Positions 1 through 19,013 of a stretch of DNA of 21,643 nucleotides are shown in pieces. The notes under the pieces are model-generated. The model was not told the origin of the DNA and ran no database searches. It was given only the letters and a program-made list of their open reading frames with translations. The first letter of the stretch is position 1. Every line of letters starts with the position of its first letter. The translations under genes and the position numbers were made by a program. The DNA is from a virus. The stretch spans positions 1 through 21,643 of IMG/VR virus record IMGVR_UViG_3300031788_000123. One strand, 5' to 3'.

Positions 1-3000
1 GCACCGCAATGCCAGTTTGCTGTTTCAAAGAGTCCAGGATTTCAGCCAGCAATCGCACTGTTGGTGAATTTGAACTCAAGTCGGCATCAAGTTGTTTCTG
101 CTGAACTTCACGAAGATTTTTGTTATGAAGTTTCGCCAATTCGATAAAGTTACCTTTATTGCTGCTTTGGTCCGCCAATTGCTCATTAATACCGCGTTCT
201 TCCGGAACGAATTTATTGGCGTGATCTTTATCGAATGCCGCCTGCTGCTCTTCCTGTTTTTTGTAATCTACCGGAATGGCTGGTTCCGGAGCAGGTTCTG
301 GTGTTGCTTCGGTAGGTTTATCTTCTTTTTTGTCACCGCCTTGTCCAAAACCAAGTGCGTCATAGCCCATCATTAGAAATTGCATACCATCGGCTAGACC
401 TTCCAGGATCGGTGCCGCTGGTGCACCAATGACAGACGCCGCCAAGGCTATTGCCGCAGCATCCATTGCCGCTGATGCTGTGTCTATTGATGCACCGACT
501 TTATCACCACTGGAATATCTTTCCTTTGCGGATACAGCCAACATGGCTATATTGACGCCAGGAATGAACTTTGCTGTGGTTTTTGCGGCTGCTTTTGCAG
601 CGGCTTCTGCGGTGCCGCGTGCAACACTTTTCAGGATTCCTTTTTGTGTCACGTCCTTGATAACGTCTTCGGCAAGCGGCGCCGCTTTCAATGTAGCAGC
701 CTCCGGCACTTTTATGACTTTACTGGCATCGGTCGCGTTACCCGCTATTTCCGCTGTTTTGCCGGTGGCATCCGTTGCGGTTTTCAGTGTTGCATCGGCA
801 GCGCCAGCTACCCTTGCACTTGTGGCGTCAGCCATCTCAGCCGCCTTACCGGTGGCGTCCGTTGTAGTCTTTGCTGTTGCTTTGGCTATATCGGAAGCGC
901 TGCCAACAGCTTCCGTTGTGGTTTTCGTTGTTGCATCGGCAGCGCCAGCTACTCTTGCACTTGTGGCGTCAGCCATCTCAGCCGCCTTACCAGTGGCGTC
1001 TGCTGTAGTCTTTGCTGTTGCTTTGGCTATATCGGAAGCGCTGCCAACAGCTTCCGTTGTGGTTTTCGCTGTTGCATCGGCAGCGCCAGCTACCCTTGCA
1101 CTCGTGGCATCAACCATTTCAGCCGTTTTATCAGCGGCATTCGCTGTTTTGGCGGCGGCGTCATTGGCAGCCGTGCCCATTCCGGAGACTTTTTTAACTG
1201 TTCCAACGATGGCGGTTGTGGCAGCCTTGGCTAATGGAAATACGGAAGCCCCTGCCATAACGAGACCACCAAGATCCTCGACCTTGTCCAAAACGTCTCC
1301 GACGCCAGCCGGACGTGCCGGCTCGCCCTCATCGGCATTGCCGCCGTTGTCATCATCGTCCCGGTCATTATCATCTTTTTCGTCATCCGGTCGTTTTTCT
1401 TTATCTGCCAGTCCCTGTTTTTTTACCCAGCCCTCTCTGGATATGCCATTCATTTGGCTAGCCATCTCAAGGGTCAGCTTGGCGTCAGCGTCTCCTTGGG
1501 ACGCAAGAATTTTTAACGTATCTGCGTGTTCATTAACGTCTTTCTTTATGCGGTCGTAGTACTCGCCTTCGTCTCGAACTTCCGCTGCATGAGCGGAGGA
1601 ACTGGAAGCCACCAAAGCAGCAATTCCGCCAACGCCCAGAAGTGCAGCGCCGTACTTTCCTTTGTTTCGCCCAATATGATCACCAACTCTTTGGCGACCT
1701 GTTCTTCTTGGTCCTTTTTCTTCACGTTGACCGCCGGTTCGACGGCGTTCTTCTTCCTGTTTTTTCTTACGCTCTTTTTCCTCAGGAGTTTCCCGTCTGT
1801 TATCGTCTTCACCACCACCACCACCACTGCCTCCGCTACCCCCATTGACATTTACGACTTGCGCTTTGATATTGACCTTGCGCGCCGACATCCCTAGCAA
1901 ATTGCCAAGAAACGACTTTCCGGCACCGAGCAGGGAACCGATCAGGGACTTCACGAGAAGCCCTCCAGCTATGACCGTCAATCCGGTCAGAAAATCCGCT
2001 TTATGGTTGGGTTTGTCCTTACCGTCCTCACCCTTTTCCGGTGTTATAACACCACTCCAGAAACCATGAATAAAATCAACGATTTTTGCTATAACATCGG
2101 CGGTGACACCGATCCAATGACCCAAGGTCTTGAGATTATCCACAATGCTCGGTAGGTCATCTGTGGCAAAGTCGATAAAGCCTTGAAGAAAGTTTTTAAC
2201 AGCCGTAGCGGCATCAGGCAATTTATCTATAAACTTATCAATAAAATCGCCAGCAGCTTTTATATTTTTAGGTGAGAACGCAGATGCCACGAGGCTTCCA
2301 AATGCGGCCCCCAACCTTGTTGCCACCAGTTTCAGTTTCTCAACGACAGGGGCGATGTTACCAACGCTGCCTTCAACCCCTTGCAATGCTCCGTAGAAGG
2401 CTTCCCTAAACGCGCCGGTTACCGTACTTAGTGCCTCTTCCAATGAGGACATCAGCGCGGTAAACCCTTTCATTGATTCCTGTTTTTTTACCCAGTCCTC
2501 TCTGGATATGCTATTCATTTGCTGAGCCATCTCAAGGACCAGCTTGGCGCCGGCATTTCCTTGCGACGCAAGAATTTTTAACGTATCAGTGTTTTCATTC
2601 GCGGCTTTCTTTATGCGGTCGTAGTATTCGCCTTCGTCTTTGGCATCGAATTTGCCGGTTTTGATTTTGTCAGCCGCATCCTGCATGGCACTCATAATGC
2701 CGGTTGCCCCAACCGATGCAAGTTCCTTGCCCACATCGGTCATCCAAACCAGTCCCAACCCAACAGTCTGTGCCAACCCCTTGGCAAGCATGGCACCGGT
2801 TTCGCCGGGAATGGATGCCATGAACGCAGTCGCCGTGGTCAATGCTTTGGTCTGTGCGTCCGTGAGGTGGGAGTTGACGAGGGATACATCCTGCAATGCT
2901 GCATTCGTTGCCTTCGCTATGTCATCACGGCTTTTGCCTGTCACCGCTGAAAAATCAGAGATGTCTTTGGCAAATTGTGCCACGCTCTTGGATGTCGCGT

Positions 3001-3685
3001 CTTTATTGCGGAATGTTGACGAATTCTGGAGGCGTAATGTTTCAGCGTAATCTCCGGTCAAATCAGCGAGTTGTCCGATTGACATCCCATAGAAACCCAT
3101 GGGGCGCAAACTGTCGCGAACTGATTTTTGCAATGAACCCAATGACCTGCCGGTTTGGGTGTTGCTGTCAGCAAGTACCGCCGCTACGGTGCTGTTTCTT
3201 TTCAGCATTGCGGCAAATTCGTCCAGCGGCAATCCCGCTTCGCCGGCAGAGCGCGCCATTTCCAGCATCGAGCCGCCAAATGTCTGACCGATATCGGTCA
3301 TCTTTTGGTAGCTCTTGGCAAGGTGCATGCTGCCTTCGATCAGGCTGACGAACATGGCTCCGCCAGCAAGACCGGCAACAAACCCCTTCAGACCATGGAT
3401 AACCTCATCAACACCGCCACTGAGGCGTTTAATTGAGTTGGTATAATGATTAATTTGGGCATCAAACTTCGCTATACTGGCGCCGACACGCGTTTTGTGT
3501 TTTTTCGATTCCTTGTCACCAGATCTATAGAGGTCGGCGATTATTTTATCGGCTGCGTACTTATTGCCAGCAGGGTGTTTGGCGTCATTTTTCGAGGCAC
3601 CCATGATCTTCCCAAAGCCGACAAACAACTCCTTGTTGTTTCTGGAGATTGCCGCAACAAGTGAGTCTATTTCGTGTTGTTCCAT
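1..3685 (-). CDS. Tail tape measure protein (partial, C-terminus beyond left edge)
   Basis: The minus frame is open from an ATG at 3685 to the window edge, at least 1228 codons; I checked it codon by codon and found no stop. The protein would fill the tail tube and set its length. It has a polar N-terminus, a hydrophobic stretch near residues 103-122, a long helical region, a hydrophobic Gly/Leu-rich segment near 562-598, and a Gly/Ser linker near 613-626. A Lys/Glu/Arg-rich stretch follows, then a signal-peptide-like Ala-rich segment near 679-703, Ala/Thr-rich tandem repeats near 855-965, and another hydrophobic region near 1030-1110. A 53-residue block at 350-402 recurs at 705-757. Length, repeats, membrane segments and baseplate neighbours are typical of tape measure proteins. 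T4 gp29 is about half this size, and I see no direct gp29 similarity. A candidate late promoter lies 33 nt upstream. Ala-rich open frames on the opposite strand are shadows of this gene. Confidence 0.8.
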   Translation of the reverse strand, partial: MEQHEIDSLVAAISRNNKELFVGFGKIMGASKNDAKHPAGNKYAADKIIADLYRSGDKESKKHKTRVGASIAKFDAQINHYTNSIKRLSGGVDEVIHGLKGFVAGLAGGAMFVSLIEGSMHLAKSYQKMTDIGQTFGGSMLEMARSAGEAGLPLDEFAAMLKRNSTVAAVLADSNTQTGRSLGSLQKSVRDSLRPMGFYGMSIGQLADLTGDYAETLRLQNSSTFRNKDATSKSVAQFAKDISDFSAVTGKSRDDIAKATNAALQDVSLVNSHLTDAQTKALTTATAFMASIPGETGAMLAKGLAQTVGLGLVWMTDVGKELASVGATGIMSAMQDAADKIKTGKFDAKDEGEYYDRIKKAANENTDTLKILASQGNAGAKLVLEMAQQMNSISREDWVKKQESMKGFTALMSSLEEALSTVTGAFREAFYGALQGVEGSVGNIAPVVEKLKLVATRLGAAFGSLVASAFSPKNIKAAGDFIDKFIDKLPDAATAVKNFLQGFIDFATDDLPSIVDNLKTLGHWIGVTADVIAKIVDFIHGFWSGVITPEKGEDGKDKPNHKADFLTGLTVIAGGLLVKSLIGSLLGAGKSFLGNLLGMSARKVNIKAQVVNVNGGSGGSGGGGGEDDNRRETPEEKERKKKQEEERRRTGGQREEKGPRRTGRQRVGDHIGRNKGKYGAALLGVGGIAALVASSSSAHAAEVRDEGEYYDRIKKDVNEHADTLKILASQGDADAKLTLEMASQMNGISREGWVKKQGLADKEKRPDDEKDDNDRDDDDNGGNADEGEPARPAGVGDVLDKVEDLGGLVMAGASVFPLAKAATTAIVGTVKKVSGMGTAANDAAAKTANAADKTAEMVDATSARVAGAADATAKTTTEAVGSASDIAKATAKTTADATGKAAEMADATSARVAGAADATTKTTTEAVGSASDIAKATAKTTTDATGKAAEMADATSARVAGAADATLKTATDATGKTAEIAGNATDASKVIKVPEAATLKAAPLAEDVIKDVTQKGILKSVARGTAEAAAKAAAKTTAKFIPGVNIAMLAVSAKERYSSGDKVGASIDTASAAMDAAAIALAASVIGAPAAPILEGLADGMQFLMMGYDALGFGQGGDKKEDKPTEATPEPAPEPAIPVDYKKQEEQQAAFDKDHANKFVPEERGINEQLADQSSNKGNFIELAKLHNKNLREVQQKQLDADLSSNSPTVRLLAEILDSLKQQTGIAV
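791..1125 (-). repeat. 141-bp tandem repeat in tape measure gene
   Basis: Copies start at 791, 932 and 1073, a period of exactly 141 bp (47 codons). The first two copies are nearly identical and the third is partial and more diverged. The encoded unit is rich in Ala, Thr, Lys and Asp (for example KAAEMADATSARVAGAAD), as expected for a helical or coiled-coil repeat. The period is a multiple of 3, so copy-number change keeps the reading frame and would lengthen or shorten the protein. Confidence 0.9.
1416..1574 (-). repeat. Dispersed in-frame duplication, copy A (partner 2481-2639)
   Basis: This 159-bp block matches 2481-2639 without gaps; I count about 19 differences by hand, roughly 88 percent identity. 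The offset is exactly 1065 bp, or 355 codons. It encodes tape measure residues 705-757, starting DEGEYYDRIKK and ending near SREGWVKKQ. It lies directly after the signal-peptide-like Ala-rich segment. Confidence 0.92.
2481..2639 (-). repeat. Dispersed in-frame duplication, copy B (partner 1416-1574)
   Basis: Encodes tape measure residues 350-402, starting DEGEYYDRIKK and ending SREDWVKKQ. It matches copy A at 1416-1574 without gaps, 355 codons away. Both termini of the unit are well conserved; the central linker positions differ most. Confidence 0.92.
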
Positions 3686-3718
3686 TTGGGAAAATTTACC
3701 ACGCGAAGGTTATAGCAA

Positions 3719-3726
3719 TATTTAGC
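3719..3726 (-). promoter_or_regulatory. Candidate T4-type late promoter box for tape measure gene
   Basis: The minus strand reads GCTAAATA, one mismatch from the last seven bases of TATAAATA. It lies 33 nt upstream of the ATG at 3685, about the same spacing as the plus-strand boxes in this window. The C in place of A at the second position makes it weaker than the others. Confidence 0.4.
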
Positions 3727-3754
3727 CGAAAATAATAGTCCGATATAACTCGCA

Positions 3755-3762
3755 GATAAATA
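3755..3762 (+). promoter_or_regulatory. Candidate T4-type late promoter box for gp26-like gene
   Basis: GATAAATA matches seven of eight bases of the T4 late box TATAAATA, 31 nt upstream of the ATG at 3794. It would be read by RNA polymerase carrying the gp55-type sigma encoded at 10232-11782. An AAAGG ribosome-binding sequence sits between the box and the start codon. Confidence 0.6.
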
Positions 3763-3793
3763 CTACCATTATCCCCCGAAAGGTATTTCTTAG

Positions 3794-4735
3794 ATGTCCA
3801 AACCGTTGAACGATGACTTTGACGAAGACGCTTTGTTTGCCGCAACTGCGGCATCCCGCAAGGCGGTCGGAGCATTGGCGCCCACAGGCAATCCGTTGTT
3901 GAATTTCTACCGGTCTCCTGGCTTGCATGTCTGTTTGCCAACCCGTGGCGCATTCATGCCGCCGGGAACGTTGGAGCAGACTATGGCGAAGGATATTCCG
4001 GTGTTGCCGATGCGGGCGATGGACGAAATCATGCTCAAGAGTCCTGATGCATTGATGTCAGGTTATGCCATTGAAAAACTGCTTGAGTCGTGTGTTCCTG
4101 CCCTGAAGGCACCAAAATTGGTCAGTCTGCCTGATTTGGATGTTTTCCTGTTGGCGATTCGGGCAGCGACCAATGGCGAAAACATGCTGTTGACCGCGTC
4201 TTGTCCGAAATGTGGAACGGACAATGAATTTACCTGTCATCTTCCGGCATTGCTTGCCACGATGACCATGGTGGACCCGGAAAACCCGGTAAGGCTATCG
4301 GATGAGGTGGTGATATATTTGCGTCCTTATAACCTATACAACGCGACAAGTGTTGCCTTGGCATCCTATGAGGAAGCTAGGCGGCTTCAGACGTTTGAGA
4401 ACGAAAACGGCACCGAAGACCCAAGGCGCAAGACCGAAATCAATCGGACCATTGAGCGGCTTGCCAAGCTCAATCTTGAGATGCTTGCTGACTGCATTAT
4501 CAAAGTTGTGGTTCCTGGTGCTGAAGTTACGGACGCTGCACAAATTGGCGGCTTTCTGTTCAACACAAAGAAGTCATGGATTAACAAAATTGAGAAAAAA
4601 CTAAACCAGATTAACGACAAGGGGATTGACAAGACGATTCATGCGAAATGTCAGAACGTTGAATGCAACCATGAATGGAAGACACAGGTGGAGTTCGACC
4701 CCGCAAGTTTTTTCGACGACAACTCCTCGGAGTAA
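3794..4735 (+). CDS. 26: T4 gp26-like baseplate hub protein
   Basis: 313 aa. The central region has the pattern I associate with the gp26 family of T4-like phages: a LPDLDVFLLAIRAAT segment followed by a Cys pair, CPKC at 137-140. A second Cys pair (C286 and C291) with a following His lies near the C-terminus; together they look like a zinc-binding site. The N-terminal third carries the proline-rich LPTRG and LPMRAMDE segments typical of these proteins. It is expected to take part in baseplate hub assembly. The start at 3794 has an upstream AAAGG and a late promoter box. It is first in a plus-strand group and is followed within 20 nt by a small gene, as expected for baseplate genes. Family assignment is from motifs only. 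Confidence 0.75.
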   Translation: MSKPLNDDFDEDALFAATAASRKAVGALAPTGNPLLNFYRSPGLHVCLPTRGAFMPPGTLEQTMAKDIPVLPMRAMDEIMLKSPDALMSGYAIEKLLESCVPALKAPKLVSLPDLDVFLLAIRAATNGENMLLTASCPKCGTDNEFTCHLPALLATMTMVDPENPVRLSDEVVIYLRPYNLYNATSVALASYEEARRLQTFENENGTEDPRRKTEINRTIERLAKLNLEMLADCIIKVVVPGAEVTDAAQIGGFLFNTKKSWINKIEKKLNQINDKGIDKTIHAKCQNVECNHEWKTQVEFDPASFFDDNSSE

Positions 4736-5262: not shown

Positions 5263-5793
5263 ATGGCAGGCAGTAAATCATCCCGCAAAGGCGGAGTTGG
5301 TGAACGCGAATTATGCAAAATTCTCGGCGATATATTTGAAGGCAAATTCCTGAGGTCTCCGCAATCAGGCGCCTTCATCGGAGGGCAGAACGCTCGGCGG
5401 AAAACAGTAATGTCAGTGGGGCAAATTCAAAGCCGCAAGGGAGATATTGTTCCGCCTGACCATATGCTACGCCTCGTGATTGAAATGAAAAATTTCTCAA
5501 AATTCTTATTTCATCAACTTATATCGCCGGGGTCATGTCCGCAGCTTGATGAATGGATTAAACAGACCCTTGACGTGGTTGATCCCGGTGATTGCTGGCT
5601 GGTATGTTTTAAAGTCACACGTGTCGGACTTTTTGTAGCCATCCCAAAATCACATGGCATGGTTATTGCTTATAGCAATCATTGCGTGTATCGTGGATTA
5701 TACGGTGATTTTATCATTACGGACCTGAAAACATTCTTTCAGGACAACCGTGCCGCAATTCTTGCGGCGACGATGACGGCAAGAACGCCCTAG
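5263..5793 (+). CDS. PD-(D/E)XK nuclease, probable Holliday-junction resolvase
   Basis: 176 aa. Candidate active-site residues come in the order expected for the PD-(D/E)XK fold: E14 in GVGERE, D61 in RKGDIVPPD, and E74-x-K76 in VIEMKN. An RSPQSGAF segment at residues 31-38 resembles the R-x-x-x-SG element of Hjc-type resolvases. The N-terminal basic stretch could contact DNA. Resolving branched DNA before packaging is the likely role; T4 does this with the unrelated endonuclease VII, which is also made late, matching the exact TATAAATA box upstream. It converges with the ERF gene, the two stops being one base apart. An alternative is a restriction-type or repair endonuclease of the same fold. 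Confidence 0.6.
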   Translation: MAGSKSSRKGGVGERELCKILGDIFEGKFLRSPQSGAFIGGQNARRKTVMSVGQIQSRKGDIVPPDHMLRLVIEMKNFSKFLFHQLISPGSCPQLDEWIKQTLDVVDPGDCWLVCFKVTRVGLFVAIPKSHGMVIAYSNHCVYRGLYGDFIITDLKTFFQDNRAAILAATMTARTP

Positions 5794-5794
5794 C

Positions 5795-6772
5795 TTATTG
5801 CCAGGGCGCCGGCTGTGGACCGCCATGTCCATTGTTGCCGTTGGGCTCCTTGATGACCGCCGCATCCTTTGCCTTCGCCCGATTCAGCAGAATGTTTTTG
5901 TGCGCAGCGAAAGCGGCAACGATACGGTCGTACCGTTCCTTGTCCGCTGTCTTGATATGTCCCAACGCGCGCTGGTTCGTTGCCCAGATTTCTTCGAGCT
6001 TGCCGACCGTCACCGATGCGCGCATACGCTTGCAGATGTTCATCTCGAAGTTGTTGAACTTGACTTTCTGCGCCTGTGCACCCTCAGCCACCATCCGGTT
6101 AGCCCGGTCCACGTCAGGCTCAAACCCATGCTCTTGGTCTGATGGCGGCGCCAAATTCTCGCAATAGTCAGACGGAAGCGCTGGACGTGTGGCGTTTGCA
6201 TACCGTGTTGCGTTTGCCGGCGCCTTCAGGTACTTGCCACGTGTTTGCTGAAACCGACTGTTGTCAAGGGCATCCTGATCCGCCTCTTCAGTCGGAATTT
6301 TGAACGCGGAGCGCATGAACGCCTTGTCAGCATAAGAGATGACCGACAGGCTCGTCTGTGCACCGATAATTTGGTGAATCAGCGTGAACGTCATGTAGCC
6401 ACGGATAACCGTTCCATCGCGATAGCGAAGGTCAACCGAAACGTCCGTGAGCAGCATCGCCTTGTCGCCGTCCGCGTTCTTCCCCCCAGTGATTTCAATC
6501 GGGCGCGGATTGCAGTTATGGGCAATCCACTGGATGCCATGTTTCGCGGCAATCGGCACAACCTTTTGATAGAATTGGTCGATGCTGGCGAAATTGAAGT
6601 TGCCGAAACTATTTCGCTGGTCACGGGCAAGCGTGCCAACTTCCTCACGGATTGCCTCCACAGCGGCAAACACCTCAGCATTGACCGACTTTGCCACAGG
6701 CTCTTCCGCCGCTACATCCACCAGTTCAGCTTCGACTGGCGGTTCGGAGGCTGACTTATTGTTTTGGCTCAT
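5795..6772 (-). CDS. ERF-family single-strand annealing protein
   Basis: 325 aa from the ATG at 6772 (MSQNNKSASEPP), chosen because GAGGG and AGGAG lie just upstream; an in-frame ATG at 6811 would add 13 residues. After an acidic, Ala/Glu-rich N-terminus the ERF-type domain spans roughly residues 28-185, with FGNFNFASIDQFYQKVVPIA, a predicted beta region around TDVSVDLRYRDG, and IGAQTSLSVISYADKAFMRS. ERF proteins bind single-stranded DNA and promote annealing during phage recombination. The C-terminal half is charged and of unclear fold. It lies 68 nt downstream of gp46, in the same direction, so it probably belongs to the same operon. T4 itself relies on the RecA-like UvsX; whether this phage also has UvsX cannot be seen here. 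Confidence 0.72.
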   Translation of the reverse strand: MSQNNKSASEPPVEAELVDVAAEEPVAKSVNAEVFAAVEAIREEVGTLARDQRNSFGNFNFASIDQFYQKVVPIAAKHGIQWIAHNCNPRPIEITGGKNADGDKAMLLTDVSVDLRYRDGTVIRGYMTFTLIHQIIGAQTSLSVISYADKAFMRSAFKIPTEEADQDALDNSRFQQTRGKYLKAPANATRYANATRPALPSDYCENLAPPSDQEHGFEPDVDRANRMVAEGAQAQKVKFNNFEMNICKRMRASVTVGKLEEIWATNQRALGHIKTADKERYDRIVAAFAAHKNILLNRAKAKDAAVIKEPNGNNGHGGPQPAPWQ

Positions 6773-6840
6773 GATTTTACCCTCTCTCCTGCTACCTACG
6801 GAGAAGAACACAAAACAGAGGCTTTGGCAAGAGATTTCCG

Positions 6841-9141
6841 CTAACTCTTCGCGTTAGCCTCAAACCTGCTGAATTGATTTTCCATATGAACTTTCAGTAA
6901 GTTATCGGCAATACCAATGAGGCATTCCTTATGGGAAATCAAAAAAACATTTTTCGATCGCTCACGCCCCATCCGGTTCAAAACGCCAAACGTCAATTCG
7001 GCGCCATTGTCATCCATGCCAGCGTCAGCCAGTTCGTCAATGAACATCAGATTGACCGTCGTATTCAGTTTTTCCCAGACATCACGGAATGCCCATGATG
7101 TGGCAAGGGTCACCCGGTTCATTTCGCCACGGGATAACTGATTAAAATCAAGCCCGCGTCCAAGCCGTGTGATTTCCACCGACAAATCCGGCATGAACGT
7201 GACCTCGTGCGGGAGCATCAACGCTTCAAGATAATGATTGAGCCGCCGGTTAAGGTCCAGCAAATTGGTGTCAATAATCTTCTTCCGAATGAAGCTTTCC
7301 TTGCCGGACAGCAACTTGTGGATAAAATCCATGTGCTTAAGCTGGTCCTGAAGTTCGGTTAGAACGGTATAATCAATTTCAACGATGGCGCTCCGCAATG
7401 ACGCAATGTTGGCGTTCTGAGGATTTTCTTTCGCCATCTCATGCTCAAGGTCACGCATTGCCGTTTCCATGCTCTGACGCAAACGCCATACCTCTTCACG
7501 GACATTAAACCGGACAGTCGGCTTGGGACCGAGATTCTGAATGGATTTGATGATATCCCGTTCAACGGCTTCCCGCTCACTGATGGCAACGCCGAGCATG
7601 GCACGGTCATCGTCCAACTGGGCAATCGTCTGCTCCACTTCCGCCTGCCGCTTTGCCAGATGTTTCCGTGCCCTGGCAATCTCGCCCTCAATGGCGGCAG
7701 CCTTGGACCGCCATTCTTCCTGTCGAACGGCATACTGTGCCACCACCTGCCCGATTTCGGCACGTATCTGCACAGCTTTGTTGCGCCAGCCTTCCTGAGC
7801 GGTCTTGTGTTCAGCAGCCAGCCTGCCCGTCTCCGTCTCAATTTCCCCGGCTTCGGCCTGCAGTTTTTCGGCGATGGCAACGTCATGAACACTTGCCGCC
7901 TCAAGGTCAGCAACTTTCTCCGCCAGCTTTGCCACAACCTTGGCAAGGTGATCAGTGCCATTAAGTCCCTGTCCGCATGTCGAGCAGGTATGATCGGTTT
8001 TGGTCATCTCCGTTTGCAGGAATGCCATCTCGGCAGCTTTGGTTTTGGTGGAAGCCATTCTCTGTTCAGCTTCCTGACTTTTGCGTTTGGCGTCAGACAG
8101 CATCCGAGCCAGTTGGTTGTCAATGCTGGACACCGCCTGTTCATCAAACCGCCTTGCCTCAGCCTCCAGACGGGCTGCCTGATGGTCGGTGGCAGGGCTG
8201 CTGGCGTCCTTCAGATAGCGGGCTGCCTCGCCCTCCAGACGCCGTATTTGGTCATCTGACGAGCCAGCATCCATTTTAAGACGGGTTTGCTCTGACACAA
8301 TCTTGGCAAGCTCACGACGCAAAAGGTCGGTTTCCTTTCCCTCCCCTTCCGCCGCGCCAAGCAACTGTCTTTCCTGTTCGATCCAGGCATCAAGCGTGTC
8401 AAAGGCGGCAATTTCAGCAGCAAAATCAATACCGGACCATTCCGTTACCTGTGCTGTTATCCGACTGACAGCGATGTTATGGGCTATGAGCCACGCGTCA
8501 CGCTCCGCTGAAGCACGCTGGATGGCAACTTCGATGCGCCCGTTGGCTTCGGTGGTCGCCTTGAGGGAAGCGTCCTCGGCACGCGTTTGTTCCTTGATAT
8601 CTGAAATCATTTTCTTCAGCGCTTCGTCGCGCTGCGACAGCGTCATGATACCAAGCAATTCCTCAATCACTTCACGTTGCTGTGCCGGCTTCATTTTAAG
8701 GAACGGGTCAGTATAGGTACTGAGCGCGACGATATGCTGGAATAGCGTATGGCTCATACCGATGATGGCGTTAATCTCGGTTTGGGTATGGCGGTTTTCG
8801 CCCAGGGCGGCATCTGTGGGGACGCCGTTGGCATCAAAGACCAACATATGCAGCACGTTCGGCTTACGTCCACGTTCGATGCGGTAGCGCATGCCGTCGC
8901 GTTCCAGATCAACACCAACGAGCATGTTTTTCAGGTTGATATTGTTAATCAGGTTGTCGAGGTTGATATTGGTTAACGGCTCTCCATAAATCCCGTAGGA
9001 CAGCGCCTGTAGCATGGCGGTTTTGCCGTGTCCGTTGTTGCCAAGCACCAGCGTCAGAAAGTCGGCGTCCAGACGGATAGCCTGTGTGGCGTTGCCGACC
9101 GACCAAAAATTACGCATGTCGAGACCGAGAATTTTGGTCAT
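6841..9141 (-). CDS. 46: gp46-like recombination nuclease subunit (Rad50/SbcC ATPase)
   Basis: 766 aa. The N-terminus has a Walker A loop at 34-41 (GNNGHGKT), followed by a long coiled coil with a zinc-hook CSTC near residues 385-388. The C-terminal half carries the ABC signature (LSRGEMNRV, near 665) and Walker B (LMFIDELADAG, near 697). This is the layout of Rad50/SbcC/gp46 ATPases, which work with Mre11/gp47 to resect DNA ends. T4 gp46 is about 560 aa, so the coiled coil here is longer. The start codon overlaps the gp47 stop as ATGA, so translation is probably coupled, as expected for subunits of one complex. Several long open frames on the plus strand here are shadows. Confidence 0.92.
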   Translation of the reverse strand: MTKILGLDMRNFWSVGNATQAIRLDADFLTLVLGNNGHGKTAMLQALSYGIYGEPLTNINLDNLINNINLKNMLVGVDLERDGMRYRIERGRKPNVLHMLVFDANGVPTDAALGENRHTQTEINAIIGMSHTLFQHIVALSTYTDPFLKMKPAQQREVIEELLGIMTLSQRDEALKKMISDIKEQTRAEDASLKATTEANGRIEVAIQRASAERDAWLIAHNIAVSRITAQVTEWSGIDFAAEIAAFDTLDAWIEQERQLLGAAEGEGKETDLLRRELAKIVSEQTRLKMDAGSSDDQIRRLEGEAARYLKDASSPATDHQAARLEAEARRFDEQAVSSIDNQLARMLSDAKRKSQEAEQRMASTKTKAAEMAFLQTEMTKTDHTCSTCGQGLNGTDHLAKVVAKLAEKVADLEAASVHDVAIAEKLQAEAGEIETETGRLAAEHKTAQEGWRNKAVQIRAEIGQVVAQYAVRQEEWRSKAAAIEGEIARARKHLAKRQAEVEQTIAQLDDDRAMLGVAISEREAVERDIIKSIQNLGPKPTVRFNVREEVWRLRQSMETAMRDLEHEMAKENPQNANIASLRSAIVEIDYTVLTELQDQLKHMDFIHKLLSGKESFIRKKIIDTNLLDLNRRLNHYLEALMLPHEVTFMPDLSVEITRLGRGLDFNQLSRGEMNRVTLATSWAFRDVWEKLNTTVNLMFIDELADAGMDDNGAELTFGVLNRMGRERSKNVFLISHKECLIGIADNLLKVHMENQFSRFEANAKS

Positions 9142-10166
9142 ATCTCGGTCAACTGACGGTAAATAGCAACAAGTTTATCTGTCGAGAGCCCTGTGCCATC
9201 GATGGACATCAGCCCATCGATTACCATCTGGTCAACCGTATGGAAGACCACTGTTTCGTCATTGAATTCCTGGAGTTCCGCGCTGTCTTTTGGTTGTTTC
9301 ATCAGTTCCATCTTCCGCAGTCCGTATGTCTCAACCAGAGAATCACGGATTTCCTGAGCTTCCTCATAGATCAGGGGAAGGTCAATGGTGGTGCGGATGG
9401 TCATTTTCGGATGCATGATTCCTGGCGTGTCGATCAATTCAGAGAGTTTGGCTTCCTTGAACAGGGGCTGGTCCGGCCACGCCTCAAAAATCGGTTCTTT
9501 TCCCCAATCCAGGAGCATGATGCCGCGATCTTCATCATTCGAATCCGAAAAATTCATGGGCATAATTGCACCCATATAAATCACTTTGCCCTGTTTCTGG
9601 CGCTTGTGGTAATGCCCCGAAAATACGTATTCTGTATTGAGAAATTGATCGGGTTTCACCAGGGTTGGGCTATCGGGCATGATAATGCGGGCGTTCATCA
9701 GGAATCCCGGCATTTCCAGATGTCCAAACACATAACGGCTGTTGATGTTCTTGATACTTTTGTATTCATCGCCAACAAGCCATGGCAACAGGGTTACATT
9801 TCCTGTGGTAAGCGGGTCACGGATGAATTCGATATTGCTGAGATTGCGGCCAAATTCAATGCTGGCACCATCCCGCTTTTCTCTAAAGGGCAGGTCGTGA
9901 TTTCCGGAAAGCCAATAGGTTTTCTTGAAGGACGAATTCAGCAGTTCCATTCCGGCTAGGGAATGTGGAAGAACGGTCGTCCTTATATTATGCCGGCTAT
10001 CGTGCCAATCTCCCAGGAAAATGCAATTTTCCGCACCCCATGACAAAGCGCGGTCAACTGCCCATTGTAGGAAATCAGTGTTGTCCTGCAATGCGATGGG
10101 GCTTGCGCCATTTCGTCCAAAATGCGCGTCGGTAAATGCGACCGTTTTCCTGAACAAATTCTCCAT
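9138..10166 (-). CDS. 47: gp47-like recombination nuclease subunit (Mre11/SbcD)
   Basis: 342 aa, close to the T4 gp47 length of about 339. The metal-binding motifs of calcineurin-type phosphoesterases are present in order: D13-x-H15 (FTDAHFGRNG), GDWHDSRH with D53, GNHD at 88-91, GHLEMPG, and GHYHKR. It is the nuclease partner of gp46 in end resection and recombination-dependent replication. The gene overlaps gp46 by four bases and lies 65 nt downstream of the sigma factor gene on the same strand. Confidence 0.92.
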   Translation of the reverse strand: MENLFRKTVAFTDAHFGRNGASPIALQDNTDFLQWAVDRALSWGAENCIFLGDWHDSRHNIRTTVLPHSLAGMELLNSSFKKTYWLSGNHDLPFREKRDGASIEFGRNLSNIEFIRDPLTTGNVTLLPWLVGDEYKSIKNINSRYVFGHLEMPGFLMNARIIMPDSPTLVKPDQFLNTEYVFSGHYHKRQKQGKVIYMGAIMPMNFSDSNDEDRGIMLLDWGKEPIFEAWPDQPLFKEAKLSELIDTPGIMHPKMTIRTTIDLPLIYEEAQEIRDSLVETYGLRKMELMKQPKDSAELQEFNDETVVFHTVDQMVIDGLMSIDGTGLSTDKLVAIYRQLTEI

Positions 10167-10231: not shown

Positions 10232-11782
10232 TTAGACCTTTGGTTTACGTCCCCGCTTTTTTGGCAACAAGACCGGCTCTACCTTCGGAAGCCCGTCATC
10301 GTCACCGCCGTCGAGTATCCGTTGCTCAAACATCTGTTCGAGTTCATGGTCGATCTGACGGGTAAAGGACGGCGCGGCGCCCGCCATAATAAGCAAATCA
10401 TCACGGATATCGCGGTTCCGGTGTTCAATGTTCAGCACTCTCCGAAAGCAATTTTTGATGATCTGAGTGTAAAACGCAAAAGGATTGTCTGACTTTGATT
10501 CATCAAACTGTAATCCGACTTTTGACAGTTGCAACAACGAAAAACTGCGCATTTCGTCCACATAGGTGTTGCCTGTCAGATAGATAGTTCCATTGCGCAT
10601 TGCCATGAACGACCCATATTCCGTTTTGGGACACCACACCTTGGCGTGATAATCAGTGGTTGGTTCATTTGGATGGTCAAAATCACCGTTCCGCTTGCCA
10701 CCGGCGAAATCAATTTTTTCAACCTTAATAGACTTTTCTTGTGCTGATAACCTGTTGATTTCAAAATAAGTATCGGTTTTTTTGATTGAAACCCGATAAC
10801 CGGCTATGGTGCAGAGCATCAGAACAGCATCAATATGTTCTTTATTTGAGTGTTTATATCGGTTAGTAAAAGTGAATATTGCCCCTATCAAAAGTTGCCT
10901 TTGATGTTGGGTTAAAGAAAGCACAACGGGAAAATCAATAAGTTCTGGAATCACCTTAATCTTATCATCAACGAAACCAGGACCGTTTTCCAGCGGTGCC
11001 CCGGTCAAAATTATTCTGTCTGTCGCCAACAGGTAATCAACTTCCTTGAGACCGCCGTCTGTGACGAACTTATGCCGTGGTGTAACCAGCGCATCCATTC
11101 CGGTGACACTGAGCTTGAACATCTTGCCTTTATAGTCATCGTCTCTGAAAATAGATTCAATCTTCGACCATTTTAGCTGCCCGTTATCGTATGACAGGAT
11201 AATATCTCTTTCTGTGATATCGTCAGTACCCAGCCAACCGCGTTGTGTAAGTGCTTTGGTTTCCCCATCCACGCAATAGGACCGCCAGTTACTGCGCCTG
11301 CTAAAGCGGTCAACCAACAGCATAAACATGCTTGCCAAACGGTTATTAATTGTGCCATGTTCGTCACAGAAGCGACCAGCTTCGAGTGTACCTATCCAAT
11401 GGGAGCGACCGACTTCAACGGCAATGCCATCGCGGATGACATAATGCTCAAATGGTGGAAATGACGTCCGAATGGTCGGAAAACCGCGTTTCAGGCGCTT
11501 GGCACAAGTTTCCAATGGAACATGCCGGTCGGTCATGAGTCTGAATATAAGGTCAGCGGGAGCAAACGTGTCTGGCAATTCCGTGGTATTGCCTCTTTTG
11601 GTCAGGGAGGACGTTTGCCTTTCAAAGGTTTGTTCGATAAATTCAGGCGTCAATTCGTCCAAAGACCGGATAATGGCGTCAAAACGGTGATAACTCTTGT
11701 CCGTGAATGAACTGTAGGTTATTTTGGAACGGTGTATTTCCTGAAGCAGGTCTTTATTCGAAATATATTTTATTCTATCCAT
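10232..11782 (-). CDS. 55: gp55-like late sigma factor interrupted by an intein
   Basis: 516 codons; removing the intein (residues 170-405) leaves a 280-aa sigma factor. The N-terminus (IKYISNKDLLQEIHRSK) resembles the T4 gp55 start. Around the splice junction, LASMFMLLVDRFSRRSNWRSY joins TYVDEMRSFSLLQLSKVGLQ, then FDESKSDNPFAFYTQIIKNC, which follows sigma region 2 as in T4 gp55 (185 aa from memory). It would direct RNA polymerase to TATAAATA-type late promoters. About 100 extra residues (roughly 25-140) lie between the conserved N-terminal motif and region 2. The C-terminus ends in a basic KKRGRKPKV tail instead of an obvious clamp-binding motif. AAGGAG lies 11 nt upstream of the ATG. The gene starts a minus-strand block leading into gp47, gp46 and ERF. 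Confidence 0.82.
   Translation of the reverse strand: MDRIKYISNKDLLQEIHRSKITYSSFTDKSYHRFDAIIRSLDELTPEFIEQTFERQTSSLTKRGNTTELPDTFAPADLIFRLMTDRHVPLETCAKRLKRGFPTIRTSFPPFEHYVIRDGIAVEVGRSHWIGTLEAGRFCDEHGTINNRLASMFMLLVDRFSRRSNWRSYCVDGETKALTQRGWLGTDDITERDIILSYDNGQLKWSKIESIFRDDDYKGKMFKLSVTGMDALVTPRHKFVTDGGLKEVDYLLATDRIILTGAPLENGPGFVDDKIKVIPELIDFPVVLSLTQHQRQLLIGAIFTFTNRYKHSNKEHIDAVLMLCTIAGYRVSIKKTDTYFEINRLSAQEKSIKVEKIDFAGGKRNGDFDHPNEPTTDYHAKVWCPKTEYGSFMAMRNGTIYLTGNTYVDEMRSFSLLQLSKVGLQFDESKSDNPFAFYTQIIKNCFRRVLNIEHRNRDIRDDLLIMAGAAPSFTRQIDHELEQMFEQRILDGGDDDGLPKVEPVLLPKKRGRKPKV
10568..11275 (-). other. Intein within gp55 (236 codons, C170 to N405)
   Basis: The first residue is C170 in the context RSY|CVDGETKALTQRGWLGTDDI, a typical N-terminal splicing block. 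TPRHKF near 234-239 matches block B with its conserved Thr and His. The C-terminal end has a block F-like VWCPKTEYGSFMAMRNGTIY, then LTGN|T with terminal Asn 405 and extein Thr 406. The penultimate residue is Gly, where many inteins have His; the NG-x-I-x-x-TGN form is one I associate with other phage inteins. Residues about 288-345 (SLTQHQRQLLIGAIF through IAGYRVSIKK) look like a shortened or decayed LAGLIDADG region. Splicing would rejoin the flanks as RSY-TYVDEM. Confidence 0.9.
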
Positions 11783-12876: not shown

Positions 12877-13182
12877 ATGCCAGTCATTGATTATCCAGGG
12901 ACATCCCCTTATTCGGCAACACCACAGACCAGTTGGTATCTTGAGCGGTTTGTTGTCAAGCCAGTTTCGCCTGATTCAGGTGACCAGCTTTTTGTTTTGT
13001 TGCCACGGCATAATTTCCGTCCTGATACGTTGAGCTACGACCTGTATTCGACCATGGCATACTGGTGGGTGTTTGCCATGCGCAATCCGCGTTTGCGCAA
13101 AGATCCAATTTGGTCATTCAAGGCTGGTTTGACAATTATTGTTCCTAGCGCGTCATACGTTCGCCAAGTGGCGGGTTCCTGA
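12877..13182 (+). CDS. 53: gp53-like baseplate wedge protein
   Basis: 101 aa. The segment HNFRPDTLSYDLYSTMAYWWVFAMRNPRLRKDP, here described by its key elements RPD, YDLY, WWVFA and RNP, is the hallmark of the gp53/LysM-like family. It ends in GLTIIVPSASYV, the hydrophobic strand typical of the LysM-like fold. The N-terminus (YPGTSPYSATPQTSWYL) also fits. T4 gp53 is about twice as long, so this is a compact version. In T4, gp53 joins wedge to hub and neighbouring wedges. The stop codon overlaps the hub ATG (TGATG), so translation is coupled. Confidence 0.75.
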   Translation: MPVIDYPGTSPYSATPQTSWYLERFVVKPVSPDSGDQLFVLLPRHNFRPDTLSYDLYSTMAYWWVFAMRNPRLRKDPIWSFKAGLTIIVPSASYVRQVAGS

Positions 13183-16100
13183 TGGCTACAAGCTGGCAAG
13201 AACAACAAAACGCAAACAATGCCCTAAGGGCGCAACTTGATGCCAAAGCAGCAAATCTCGCTCAAGATGATCCGAAGTGGGCAAACGTACAAAGTGGCTA
13301 TGCGAAATTGGATGCGATGGACGCGGAAATCGCACCACATCTTCCACCACAAAACTACGCCGTATCGCCAAACACGACACCGTCGCCACCAGCACAGGCA
13401 GCACCACAACCGGAATCACAACCAACACCACAACCAACGGCACCTGCGGTAGCGTCCCCGGAGCCCCCTCCCGCGCCGGCAACGCCACCAACACCGGTCA
13501 CACCGCCAGCGCCCGGTTCCGGCATTCCGTTGCCGTCCGACACGCCATCCGTTCCGCAAGTTGCCCTCCCAGGTGGCGGCGGAAACGCACCACAATATAT
13601 CGGCAACCTAATGTCCCCTCCGGGGTCAGCGCCGGCATCATCATCCCCTGACCTGACTGGCGGGTCATCGAACATCCCGACGATGACGGTAACCCCGTCT
13701 TCCGGTGGCAACGCTGCATCATCGCCATCCCCGGCGGCCGGTGCCGCTGCGGCATCGTCAGCAGGCTCAACCCCATCGTCAACGCCAACCACCCCATCTC
13801 CGGCTGCCGGTGCCGCAGCGGCGTCTTCCAACAATTCCGAGGTGCGGAACGGCACGGCGCCGTCCACTGCCGCAGCCACGTCGGCGACACCCCAAAGCGG
13901 TGTGACGGATGCACAAGCCGCACAGGCGGTGAAAGACCTGATCAATGGCAAGGGAACACCGAATCCGTTGAACGACCTTTTTCAGGCAACGTATCACTGG
14001 CGTTTGTATGTGACGCAGGACGTTGACCTGTATGCTGCGGCGGGCAGTCCTGCCAAGCCATCAGCGATCTATGAAAAACTTGCCACCTTGCCGCAGGTGA
14101 CGATAGCGGAAACCGGAATCACCACTTACAACATCAAGAGTGTTGAGATCGATTCGACCGTGGGTCCGAACGGGCACACCCGCGCGATGACAGCCACCGC
14201 CATCAAAATGACGGTTGTTGAGCCGATGGGCATGGGCTTCATGGATTCCATAGCGAATGCCTGCGCATCCCTGAAAATACGCAACTGGGAGAAATGTTTC
14301 TATTATCTGGAGTTGAGTTTCATGGGATATGATGCCAGTGGCGGTTTTGTGGACAACCCGGTCAAGTCTTATAAGATGGACGCCTCCAATAAATGGATTT
14401 GGCAAATGGTCATCACCTACATCGATGTCCATTTTGATGCCGGGGGCGGCACTTATAACATTGCAGCCACTCCTTGGGCAGAGGGTGCCGCTTTGGGGGA
14501 CGAATATCGCTGTCTTCCGGAACAGATAACCGTCCAGGCTGCGACCATCGGTGAATTGTTTGAGGGTATCGGCAAGGCGATGACCGACAGCTATCATGAC
14601 AGGAACGGCAACGACAACGTGAAGTTTGGCGATCCGAACAAAAGCCCGCCCGTCAAGGCATTCAAATGGTATCCGATAACCGACGCGCCAAGCCGGGTCA
14701 ACGGTCTTGACCCGGCCAAATTCGAACTGAAAAACAAACAGCCTGCCCTTAGTTCCCTGCGCGGCATGTCAATGGATTTCACTGGGTCAGCCGGCAATCC
14801 GACAGCAAGATTTCAGCCCGGCGTTTCACTTGACAAAATGATTGAATATGCCTTGATGAACACCGAACAGGCACAATTGCTGGTGATGGACAATGACAAC
14901 AAAACCGGTGCGACTGACGGTGCACCGAGTGCAACAAACGACCGGCGGCTTCGGGAAAGCATTGTTGTCCGCATCGAAGTCGATGTGATTATGGGAGCCT
15001 ACGAAGCCTATTCCCAACAATACCAGAAAACGATTGTCTATCACATACACCCATACTACACCCTGGCGCCGATTACCAGCAAACAGCAGCCGGTTGATGC
15101 GGCAACACCAGCGGTATCGGGTTTGGCGTTGTATCGCCTTTTGAACAAGAATTACATCAAAAAGGTTTACAATTATCTTTACACTGGATTGAACACCGAA
15201 GTCATCGATTTGGATATTGGTTTTAATATCGCATGGAGTTCGACATTGCCGCGCCTTGAGGGTGCCCGTCTGACTTATGATCAAAGTGACCCTGCCGAAC
15301 GGGCCAACAACACGGATGAAGGCGGTAAAGAAGAAGTCGATCAATTAAAGAACAAAGTTTTGCAACTGGAAAACCAACACGCAGGCGTGCAGGCTTCACT
15401 GGGATTGATGAACGCCGCCAAGGATCAGGTGAACACGCTTACTGCGCAACTCAATAACCCAAATACATCCGCTACGCAACAAGCATCACTTAAAAGCCAG
15501 ATATCAGCCCTGTTGTTGAATGGTGATCTTACGAAGTTAATACCGGTTATTAAACAATTGGCGAGTCAGTCGAGTGCTTTGGAAAGTGCGATATCGGCAA
15601 ATCTGAATAAGCTGACCGAGCTTGGCGCCGCGAAAACCGGTCCGCCAAACCAGTATGCCGAACAGATGGTGAATAGCCCAACGGCAGCATCGTCATCCAC
15701 GGGACCAAGATTGCCGCTTCCGGTGGCATTTTCACAGAATTACGGCAAGGACGATACCGGAACAGGCATGGTTGGACAATATCATCGCGACAAATCAATT
15801 TTCGGCGCCGTGCTGAATCAGTTATACGGGTTGGTTCCGGATAAACTGATGGTGATTGACATGGGCATCCGTGGCGATCCGTATTGGCTTGGTGAGACCA
15901 ACCTGGCACGGCAAGTTTATATGCGTCCCGACACGTTTGTCCAGGCGCCGCCTGCGGTCGATCAGCCGAACTTTTTTCGCGGCGATTTCGCATTTTTGCT
16001 GAAGTTCCGCTACCCGGAGGGTCAGGGAGCCAATCTTGAACCTGTTTTCAATCCAGATGATTTGTTTAATGGAATTTATATTGTGGTCAAAGTTTTAAAC

Positions 16101-16721
16101 AATTTCTCGGACGGCGTCTTCAAACAGACCCTGCATGCCAACCGTTTGCCGCTGATCAGCCTCAAAAGCGCGCTTGCGTGGAACGGGTCCATGCCGCCAC
16201 CGGCCACTGACGCGCCTGCCGGAGGGAGCGGCAGTTCCGCTGCCCGTGGTGGCGGCGGCGGTTCTCCCTCCGGTTCTCCCTCCGGTTCCGGCAACGGTTC
16301 CGGTCCGGGTGCGCCATCAACCAATCCCAGCATAAATGCTGCCGTGGCCCATATCGATGCCAATGCCACCCCGTCGTATGCAGGGCAAACAAATTGTGCG
16401 GTCTCAGTAAGGGAAGCCCTTACGGCAGGAGGATATAATATGAACGGACATCCCGTGAATGCCGCTGATTACGGACCAACGCTTATGAGGAACAATTTCA
16501 GCCAAGTCGCGGACGGTTCGAGCATATCCGGGTTTCAGCCGCAAACCGGTGATGTCGCGGTCTTGCAGGCCGGAAGCACTCCAGCCTCGGCACCAGGACA
16601 CATTTGTCTATATGACGGACGACAATGGGTCTCCGGCTATGACCAGAGAGACGTTTGGGGCGGTCCGGACTTCCGCCGTCAGGGGCAGGGGATCGCAATC
16701 TATCGTCCACCTTCAAAATAA
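13182..16721 (+). CDS. Baseplate hub protein (gp27-like) with C-terminal peptidoglycan hydrolase domain
   Basis: 1179 aa. After a short helical N-terminus, residues about 60-250 are a Pro/Ala/Thr/Ser-rich linker including the repeated SPAAGAAAASS. A hub-type beta region follows (about 265-700, starting TYHWRLYVTQDVDLY), then a coiled coil at about 715-820 (KEEVDQLKNKVLQLEN). A second structural part contains MVIDMGIRGDPYWLG and FLLKFRYPEG (about 835-1010). A Gly/Ser linker leads to a C-terminal domain from about 1053 with C1072 (QTNCAVSVREAL), TGDVAVL, H1140 (PGHICLYDG) and QWVSGYDQRDVW. The Cys-then-His order matches NlpC/P60- or CHAP-like peptidoglycan amidases. It would form the hub on which the spike sits. 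The gp27 assignment rests on operon position and is less sure than the hydrolase domain. Confidence 0.7.
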   Translation: MATSWQEQQNANNALRAQLDAKAANLAQDDPKWANVQSGYAKLDAMDAEIAPHLPPQNYAVSPNTTPSPPAQAAPQPESQPTPQPTAPAVASPEPPPAPATPPTPVTPPAPGSGIPLPSDTPSVPQVALPGGGGNAPQYIGNLMSPPGSAPASSSPDLTGGSSNIPTMTVTPSSGGNAASSPSPAAGAAAASSAGSTPSSTPTTPSPAAGAAAASSNNSEVRNGTAPSTAAATSATPQSGVTDAQAAQAVKDLINGKGTPNPLNDLFQATYHWRLYVTQDVDLYAAAGSPAKPSAIYEKLATLPQVTIAETGITTYNIKSVEIDSTVGPNGHTRAMTATAIKMTVVEPMGMGFMDSIANACASLKIRNWEKCFYYLELSFMGYDASGGFVDNPVKSYKMDASNKWIWQMVITYIDVHFDAGGGTYNIAATPWAEGAALGDEYRCLPEQITVQAATIGELFEGIGKAMTDSYHDRNGNDNVKFGDPNKSPPVKAFKWYPITDAPSRVNGLDPAKFELKNKQPALSSLRGMSMDFTGSAGNPTARFQPGVSLDKMIEYALMNTEQAQLLVMDNDNKTGATDGAPSATNDRRLRESIVVRIEVDVIMGAYEAYSQQYQKTIVYHIHPYYTLAPITSKQQPVDAATPAVSGLALYRLLNKNYIKKVYNYLYTGLNTEVIDLDIGFNIAWSSTLPRLEGARLTYDQSDPAERANNTDEGGKEEVDQLKNKVLQLENQHAGVQASLGLMNAAKDQVNTLTAQLNNPNTSATQQASLKSQISALLLNGDLTKLIPVIKQLASQSSALESAISANLNKLTELGAAKTGPPNQYAEQMVNSPTAASSSTGPRLPLPVAFSQNYGKDDTGTGMVGQYHRDKSIFGAVLNQLYGLVPDKLMVIDMGIRGDPYWLGETNLARQVYMRPDTFVQAPPAVDQPNFFRGDFAFLLKFRYPEGQGANLEPVFNPDDLFNGIYIVVKVLNNFSDGVFKQTLHANRLPLISLKSALAWNGSMPPPATDAPAGGSGSSAARGGGGGSPSGSPSGSGNGSGPGAPSTNPSINAAVAHIDANATPSYAGQTNCAVSVREALTAGGYNMNGHPVNAADYGPTLMRNNFSQVADGSSISGFQPQTGDVAVLQAGSTPASAPGHICLYDGRQWVSGYDQRDVWGGPDFRRQGQGIAIYRPPSK

Positions 16722-16745: not shown

Positions 16746-19013
16746 ATGCCACAGGTAAACCGTCCGCCACGCGGCTTCGACAATACCACCAACTCCACCC
16801 GTGTCTATAACAACACCATTTACATCGGGTTCGTCAAACGTAACGATGACGCGCAGCGCATGGGCAGGCTCTCAGTCTGGATACCGGAAATCTGCGGTGA
16901 TCCCCTTAAGGAAACCTCGTGGATTATTTGTAACTACCTGAGTCCTTTTGGTGGCAGCACCAGCATTGATGACACCAAAAAAGGCAATCAGACCATGTCC
17001 GGCTCACAATCATCCTATGGCATGTGGATGGTTCCTCCTGATCTGGACAATCAGGTTGCGGTGTTTTTTGCCAATGGTGACGGTGCCCGAGCTTATTGGT
17101 TTGGTTGTGCATTACAACAGAACATGAACCATATGCTTCCAGGAGTTGCGGCCAATTTGGCTACGGACCCAAGCTACAAGAAGAATGGCACCGTGCCACC
17201 GGTGGTTGAATATAATAAGGCGGACGCCGGGCAAAACCTCAACAATCCATTGCGTCCGCCATTCACCCCGATGGCTAATGGTTTGGCGACACAGGGACTT
17301 GCCAAAGACTATGAGCGTGGACCGTCGTCATCGTCTGCCCGGCGCGAGGCGCCATCAAAAGTGTTTGGCTTCAACACGCCGCGTTCCAACGCCGTTTATG
17401 TGGATGACAACCCCGATAACGAACATATCCGTTTGCGGACGCGGTCTGGTGCCCAAATCGTCATTAACGAAACAACGGGATATGTCTATATCAACTCGAA
17501 AACTGGCAATTCCTGGGTGGAAATATCTGATGCGGGCATAGACGTATACACCAACAACTGCATCTCCATGCGCGCGATGGCTGATTTCAATGTTCGCGCC
17601 GAGGGGAATATCATTCTCGATTCAGGTTCCAGCATTTATATGCAGGCAGCACAGGACGTTATTGTCCAGGCAGGCAAAACCATTCAATTGGGCTCCGGCA
17701 CTGACCTCATATTTACCGCAGTTGGCGGACAACTGGACGTAAAAACATCAACCGATATTTTAATTGAGGCTGGAGCAGGGTTACAGTTGGAAGCGGATGC
17801 CGGTCCCCTGACGTTAAAGGCGAGTGGTGGTTTGAATATAGAAGCTGGCGGAGCAATGACTGCGAAATCAAGTGGCTCAATGAATCTGCAATCCAGCGGC
17901 GACATTACGGAAAAATCCGGCGGAACAATTCTCCGTTCTGCAAGCAGCATCAAGGACAATTCCGGTGCTGTAGCCGATACCGCCGATACGCCAAGCATTT
18001 CCCCCATGACAGTGAAAGGTCCGGCGCCTACGACCAAAATGGACGTATTGAACGGGAAAAGCGCAACCACTGATTCCATCACGTCCCGCATGCCAAGCCA
18101 TGAGCCTTGGGTCGGTCACCCGAAGTCAAACCTTCCGCCGGCACCGTCCGGACCAGCCACTCTGGCACAGATTGCTGCCAGACAGGGTGGCGGTTCCAGT
18201 CCGGTAACGAGCGAACCAGTTACAGACACGACACAAACTGGTACGGGTCCAATTACCACAACCAACCCAAATGAATCACAGTGCGCCACAGGGGTTGGAA
18301 CGCTGAAAGCGAGCAACAGCCAATGGGCAACCATCAACGCTGCTGCATCTGCCAAGGGTATTCCGCCCGGCAATATGATGGCTATGGCAGATGTGGAATC
18401 CCAGTTCAAAAACGGGGCAACATCCGGAACAGGAGCGCGTGGATTATTTCAAATAGTTGGAGGCACATGGAATGGTTTGGTTAATCAATATGGCGCCGCA
18501 AATAACGTTTCGTTGAGTGACTCGCCATACGACGACAATGCAAATGCCAAAATGGCAGCAGAATATTATAACGAAAATCAGCGCCTGTTGGTATCAAAAG
18601 GCATCACAAATCCGTCCGTTGGGGAGATATATATGACCCATCTGCTGGGTGGCAGCGGTGGCTCCAAATTCATTCAGGCTGCCAACACAAATCCAAACAT
18701 GCCGATCAGCGAAGCCATTTCGAGCGGGGCTCTAAGCAGCAGCGGTGTCAACAACAACCCGGTATGGTTTGGCGGTTGCGCAACCGTTGGAGATGCTTAC
18801 AACAAAATCAATGGGACCGTGAACGCCAAGGCGTCGCAATATGGAGCCCAGGCTGGTCAGCCAGCGCCTTGTGACCGCACCGGGGCATCCGGCACTGGCA
18901 CGGCAACGAGCGCAGCCGGAGCAAGCGCCACCAGCGCGCCATCCCCATCAGCCTCTACGGCATCCGCCCCTGACAACACCACTGATTCCGGAACATTGAC
19001 CGGAGGCGTCTAA
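16746..19013 (+). CDS. 5: gp5-like baseplate spike with C-terminal lytic transglycosylase domain
   Basis: 755 aa. Residues about 20-125 form an OB-type gp5/VgrG N-domain (FVKRNDDAQRMGRLSVWIPE). A region near 215-405 has short repeated strands such as GNIILDSGSSIYMQAAQDVI and LTLKASGGLNIEAGG, typical of the triple-stranded beta-helix needle. A Pro/Thr/Ser linker leads to an SLT-type domain from about 520 with candidate catalytic E551 (MADVESQF), then GTGARGLFQIVGGTW, DDNANAKMAAEYY and IYMTHLLGG. The tail is Ala/Ser-rich. In T4 gp5 the lysozyme lies between the OB domain and the needle; here the enzyme is after the needle and of another family. It lies 24 nt after the hub gene and converges with the fibre gene 21 nt away. 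Confidence 0.85.
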   Translation: MPQVNRPPRGFDNTTNSTRVYNNTIYIGFVKRNDDAQRMGRLSVWIPEICGDPLKETSWIICNYLSPFGGSTSIDDTKKGNQTMSGSQSSYGMWMVPPDLDNQVAVFFANGDGARAYWFGCALQQNMNHMLPGVAANLATDPSYKKNGTVPPVVEYNKADAGQNLNNPLRPPFTPMANGLATQGLAKDYERGPSSSSARREAPSKVFGFNTPRSNAVYVDDNPDNEHIRLRTRSGAQIVINETTGYVYINSKTGNSWVEISDAGIDVYTNNCISMRAMADFNVRAEGNIILDSGSSIYMQAAQDVIVQAGKTIQLGSGTDLIFTAVGGQLDVKTSTDILIEAGAGLQLEADAGPLTLKASGGLNIEAGGAMTAKSSGSMNLQSSGDITEKSGGTILRSASSIKDNSGAVADTADTPSISPMTVKGPAPTTKMDVLNGKSATTDSITSRMPSHEPWVGHPKSNLPPAPSGPATLAQIAARQGGGSSPVTSEPVTDTTQTGTGPITTTNPNESQCATGVGTLKASNSQWATINAAASAKGIPPGNMMAMADVESQFKNGATSGTGARGLFQIVGGTWNGLVNQYGAANNVSLSDSPYDDNANAKMAAEYYNENQRLLVSKGITNPSVGEIYMTHLLGGSGGSKFIQAANTNPNMPISEAISSGALSSSGVNNNPVWFGGCATVGDAYNKINGTVNAKASQYGAQAGQPAPCDRTGASGTGTATSAAGASATSAPSPSASTASAPDNTTDSGTLTGGV

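Follow-up and report, generated by a model that had tools for sequence, protein, structure and literature searches.

In the IMG/VR virus record studied here, 21,643 bases long and referred to throughout as the window, the gene for a gp55-type late sigma factor is interrupted in frame by a segment with intein-like motifs, which raises the questions of whether this segment is indeed an intein, whether it can still splice and move, and whether its splicing might control late transcription. The gene is a minus-strand frame without a stop through 516 codons, and an earlier reading of the letters alone (hereafter, the sequence-only reading) had placed in it a 236-codon in-frame insert that begins with Cys and ends TGN before a Thr; the coordinates given for this insert proved exact. 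The features needed below, all on the minus strand, are as follows:

10232..11782, minus strand: gp55-type late sigma factor precursor, 516 aa (open frame; PHROG matches)
11276..11782, minus strand: N-extein, gp55 residues 1-169, ending ...RRSNWRSY (alignment with intein-free gp55)
10568..11275, minus strand: intein, 236 aa, Cys1...Thr234-Gly235-Asn236, with Thr at +1 (motifs, alignments, predicted fold)
11234..11275, minus strand: block A, CVDGETKALTQRGW, with nucleophile Cys1 (Cys1 in 63/63 distinct complete inteins)
11060..11107, minus strand: block B, LVTPRHKF, with Thr65 and His68 of the TPxH motif (Thr 98% and His 100% conserved in the family)
10751..10933, minus strand: remnant of the second LAGLIDADG half (alignments; first half deleted, catalytic acid motif GDG/ADG missing)
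10568..10657, minus strand: blocks F and G, YHAKVWCPKTEYGSFMAMRNGTIYLTGN region, with terminal Asn236 (residue conservation)
10232..10567, minus strand: C-extein, gp55 residues 406-516 plus stop, starting TYVDEM (alignment with intein-free gp55)

The claim that the flanks join into a gp55-like region is borne out by a match of these flanks to PHROG 12791 ("sigma factor for late transcription", E 7e-65) and by alignments that run across the junction, while the ends of the precursor frame also match PHROG 234 (E 3e-13). The window gp55 is 43-47% identical to intein-free late sigma factors and is related to them over the gp55 sigma R2 region; this region of T4 gp55 (PDB 7d7c/7d7d), a protein that unlike the window's has no intein and a shorter N-terminal part, aligns across the splice junction. 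The gene order is gp55-gp47-gp46, with an SbcD-like frame (9138-10166) and an SbcC-like frame (6841-9141) following gp55; in Synechococcus phage B23 gp47 and gp46 also follow gp55, as does gp47 in Escherichia phage 121Q. Judging from these matches and this gene order, the host gene is a gp55-type late sigma factor. Beside gp46/gp47, PHROG matches point to an Erf-like single-strand annealing protein (5795-6811, minus strand) and a RusA-like resolvase (5263-5793, plus strand), which with gp46/gp47 would form a recombination cluster adjoining gp55. Farther away, a tandem array at 771-1147 (period 141 bases, 2.7 copies, 91% match) lies inside a minus-strand frame (2-3685, 1228 aa, open at the window edge) that resembles a large tail or virion protein, and two plus-strand frames have lysis-type C-terminal regions by PHROG match: a virion protein at 13182-16721, with an endolysin-like match at residues 1020-1158, and a baseplate hub at 16746-19013, with a transglycosylase match at residues 528-703.

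The interrupting segment covers codons 170-405, starts with C-V-D-G-E-T, ends with L-T-G-N and is followed by Thr406. Motifs of the A, B, F and G type had been proposed for it, and all four are present, block F being AKVWCPKTEYGSF and block G YLTGN. Trp214, Cys215, Thr218 and Asn236 do not vary among 62 other inteins of the family described below, and all 63 distinct complete members have Cys1, a terminal Asn and a Thr (46) or Ser (17) at +1. The Asp and His usually found in block F are replaced by Cys215 and Ser222, and the usual penultimate His by Gly235; Gly is likewise penultimate in 61 of the 63, and this position is Gly or Ser across the whole gp55 intein family. Splicing is known from inteins that lack this His (PMC7664689). 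A class 3 intein was considered on account of the block F Cys and of the top VIA match, and indeed class 3 inteins such as AceL NrdHF and MchDnaB1 share with the window the Hint fold, the block F Cys (here Cys215) and the block G Thr (here Thr234). Because the window segment has Cys1, however, and Phe70 rather than Trp two residues past the block B His (a spacing taken from PMC7664689), it is a class 1 and not a class 3 intein, and the class 1 residues Cys1, Thr65, His68, Asn236 and the Thr at +1 are all in place.

Profile searches gave a divided answer: the gp55 family was matched as anticipated, but the curated Pfam and NCBIfam intein models matched only below cut-off, the TIGR01445 hit (E 0.008) covering segment residues 1-72. 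Taken alone, the profile evidence that the segment is an intein would be weak, and such scores are what might be expected if it were instead an integral domain of gp55, or an unrelated insertion that merely resembles an intein. The predicted structure speaks against this. The AlphaFold2 model of the segment, built from a shallow alignment of nine sequences, has a pLDDT of 82.8 and a pTM of 0.82 (the other four models reached pLDDT 48-62), and in the PDB it matches inteins and hedgehog domains, consistent with the Hint fold that had been suggested for residues 170-405. The best Foldseek match is the PhoVMA intein (7qst, E 1e-6), and VIA gave a Z of 17.0 against the AceL NrdHF intein (6zgq; 137 residues, 2.0 A) and Z near 15-16 against many others. 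In a model of the precursor, the predicted Hint domain sits between gp55 helices 147-162 and 408-425, and the PDB entries matched by this model were all of the intein or hedgehog type.

More importantly, homologues without the intein show no trace of the segment. Four such proteins, the gp55 of Pseudomonas phage 30-3, Sinorhizobium phage Phosso, Escherichia phage 121Q and Agrobacterium phage Atu_ph07, align over the junction with zero extra or missing residues on either side, and intein-free relatives read Tyr|(Ser/Thr)-Tyr there. The site was also uninterrupted in 80 of the first 80 intein-free IMG/VR gp55 loci, which were ordered by how closely they resemble a query without an intein and so are uninformative on frequency. 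Such empty sites contradict an integral domain or an unrelated look-alike insertion, and near-identical copies of the segment, described below, sit in divergent gp55 genes; we consider this explanation extremely unlikely. Together with segments at the same residue in other loci, the empty sites also exclude chance as the source of the intein-like segment. Given its predicted Hint fold, its full set of class 1 splicing residues and a precise, optional, in-frame insertion absent from homologues, the segment is an intein, as the sequence-only reading had it.

This intein is part of a family. Scanning viral contigs with one sequence, either the entire protein or just the intein, returned no matches, but a first, two-sequence alignment search of IMG/VR gave 12 loci, ten of them gp55, and a second, with a nine-sequence alignment, detected 158 related stretches and supplied the 80 best. 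In all 81 inspected IMG/VR gp55 loci the intein follows the same gp55 Tyr, as it does in a contig assigned to a Prevotella MAG (L171) and in the gp55 of phage B23, the only close relative among 50,697 phage records. B23 gp289 (MN695335, QGT54902.1) thus has an intein at the identical site, about 44% identical to the window's over aligned columns; unlike the window's, it is 340 aa long and has both LAGLIDADG motifs. The B23 record notes a T4-like gp55, names the product "hypothetical protein" and annotates no intein. After B23, the best matches among those phage records fall below 30% identity and belong to genes for terminase, portal, polymerase and other proteins. Inteins of phage DNA polymerase I (Escherichia phage PaulScherrer, where it is annotated as such, and relatives) and of Gordonia terminase and portal proteins resemble the window's over the full span from Cys1 to Asn at 22-30% identity, but differ from it in host gene and insertion site. 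Two loci of the first scan (L018:2731-4338 and L019:2413-4101) were set aside, as their query-related inteins lie in another phage gene, probably ThyX by sequence. Two chromosomal loci may be mentioned here as well: in Streptomyces sp. TBY4 (L172), a frame around 1972-4032 has two intein-like regions in tandem, which weakly resemble the gp55 intein, show no clear C-terminal Asn junction and are possibly degenerate, and in Thermomonas sp. S9 (L174:1-4092) an intein whose block F is WCPTT and whose end reads TGN|S lies in a long protein, probably of a prophage gene.

The distribution of the intein indicates both inheritance and movement. Intein and extein distances are correlated overall (Spearman 0.75), and therefore much of the inheritance is vertical. 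In the pair L082 and L083, however, the intein DNA is 99.4% identical over 1,008 bases and the gp55 flanks only 73.6%, the 30 bases nearest the intein on each side being only 70-77% identical, a break at both junctions that we read as the mark of a recent horizontal move. Likewise, L047 and L049 share 93.3% of their intein DNA and 68.2% of their flanks, the G+C being about 44% in their inteins but 35% and 48% in the exteins; extein values of 34-35% beside an intein of 44%, seen in L047 and L054, fit recent transfer. Base composition was tried as a general indication of foreign origin and rejected, since across loci the intein G+C is on average only about 1 point lower; in the window the intein has 43% and the gp55 parts have 47-48%. 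In a gp55 tree with 121 rows, built on few columns and uncertain in its details, the presence or absence of the intein takes 12 changes by parsimony, 5 of them forced by strongly supported branches.

Most members of the family are full-length: 59 of the 63 distinct complete inteins are 311-346 aa long, most with recognizable LAGLIDADG motifs, and we infer that the endonuclease is active in such relatives. The remaining four are shortened (window, 236 aa; L021, 255 aa; L009, 167 aa; L017, 138 aa), and on the intein tree they require four independent losses. Of the two LAGLIDADG motifs with acidic residues found in most relatives, the window copy lacks the first entirely and the GDG of the second, even though every intein of the six other carriers in its gp55 clade (L029, L030, L033, L037, L038 and L057; support 96) has both. 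Decay has been uneven: identity of the window to its full-length kin is 0.67-0.77 in the splicing part, against 0.65-0.82 among the kin themselves, and 0.38-0.44 in the endonuclease remnant, against 0.47-0.67. A conserved splicing part beside a decayed endonuclease remnant is the pattern to be expected where selection still acts on splicing but no longer on the endonuclease. Between closely related members of the family, the splicing part is under tighter constraint, with a dN/dS of 0.03-0.13 against 0.12-0.37 in the endonuclease part; these figures come from other members as the window has no close relative. The window copy should thus no longer home and should still splice. The unusual penultimate Gly and the long branch on which the window copy falls in the intein tree could also suggest a dead intein that no longer splices, with the phage using the precursor or having lost gp55 function; with the family-conserved splicing residues kept, the splicing part conserved as in full-length kin and the frame intact over 516 codons, however, we find this very unlikely.

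We are therefore left with a reading in which we have high confidence, based on sequence comparison and a predicted fold: the window segment is a class 1 intein in gp55, probably splicing-competent, and the endonuclease-dead descendant of a widespread homing intein. One intein allele would home, via its LAGLIDADG endonuclease, to a single conserved gp55 site (Tyr|Thr/Ser-Tyr), and the window copy, its first LAGLIDADG half gone and its second lacking the acid, would have given up homing and kept splicing. By analogy with class 1 inteins, the segment would fold as a Hint domain after translation, Cys1 would attack the Tyr169 carbonyl, the chain would be transferred to Thr406, Asn236 would then cyclize, and gp55 would be religated at a predicted length of 280 aa.

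The sequence-only reading had also placed the insertion next to the RNA-polymerase-binding helix, a view that our alignment upholds: it falls after Tyr63 of T4 gp55, 7 residues before Glu70 of helix H3, whose residues E70, D74 and E77 contact the RNA-polymerase clamp helices (PMC7892883). It also separates the promoter pocket residues N13/L54/R57 from F86/H95/Y97/T99 (PMC7892883), and it is a fair inference that the unspliced precursor is inactive. A bold proposal, that splicing is a switch for late transcription, an inactive precursor sigma accumulating and becoming active only after splicing in late infection, we regard as improbable. The more general idea, suggested by the sequence-only reading and not supported by the present data, of a regulatory intein whose slow or conditional splicing (responding to replication, redox or temperature) times active gp55 and hence late transcription, is in our judgment quite unlikely too. 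Such a role would agree with an insertion that parts gp55 regions both contacting promoter DNA or RNA polymerase, with the retention of the splicing part after endonuclease loss, with a window gp55 clade (7 rows, support 96) in which all sampled members carry the intein, and with the conditional splicing reported for a mycobacterial DnaB intein (PMC6195587). However, close relatives do without the intein, such as L106, which is intein-free beside L082 with 83% flank DNA identity; the intein moves between phages, with a patchy distribution that resembles ordinary homing into a conserved site; and any intein lodged in an essential gene would be expected to keep splicing once its endonuclease is gone. 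The insertion site lies, in fact, in one of the most highly conserved parts of gp55. Such a site is a good target for a homing endonuclease, and losing the intein imprecisely from it would be costly, so that the distribution can be explained without a regulatory role.

The sequence-only reading knew of no described gp55 intein, and the open literature, to which our search was confined, yielded no report that connects an intein with gp55, with late sigma factors or with late transcription. The intein allele thus appears to be new, no earlier report of an intein in this host gene or at this insertion site having been found there. Beyond what a single sequence could tell, the comparison shows that this intein is common and mobile, and that the window copy is degenerate and without a working endonuclease. 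It is carried by many environmental phages (158 IMG/VR stretches, 81 loci inspected) and by one sequenced isolate, B23, and the stages of the homing cycle can be seen at one site, from empty genes through full-length endonuclease-bearing inteins and recent jumps to four independent endonuclease losses. For annotation, these data are a warning that gp55 in such phages can be interrupted, and for splicing work they make available many natural inteins with a penultimate Gly. A sigma factor that would need splicing to work is, moreover, a good test case for the control of timing by inteins.
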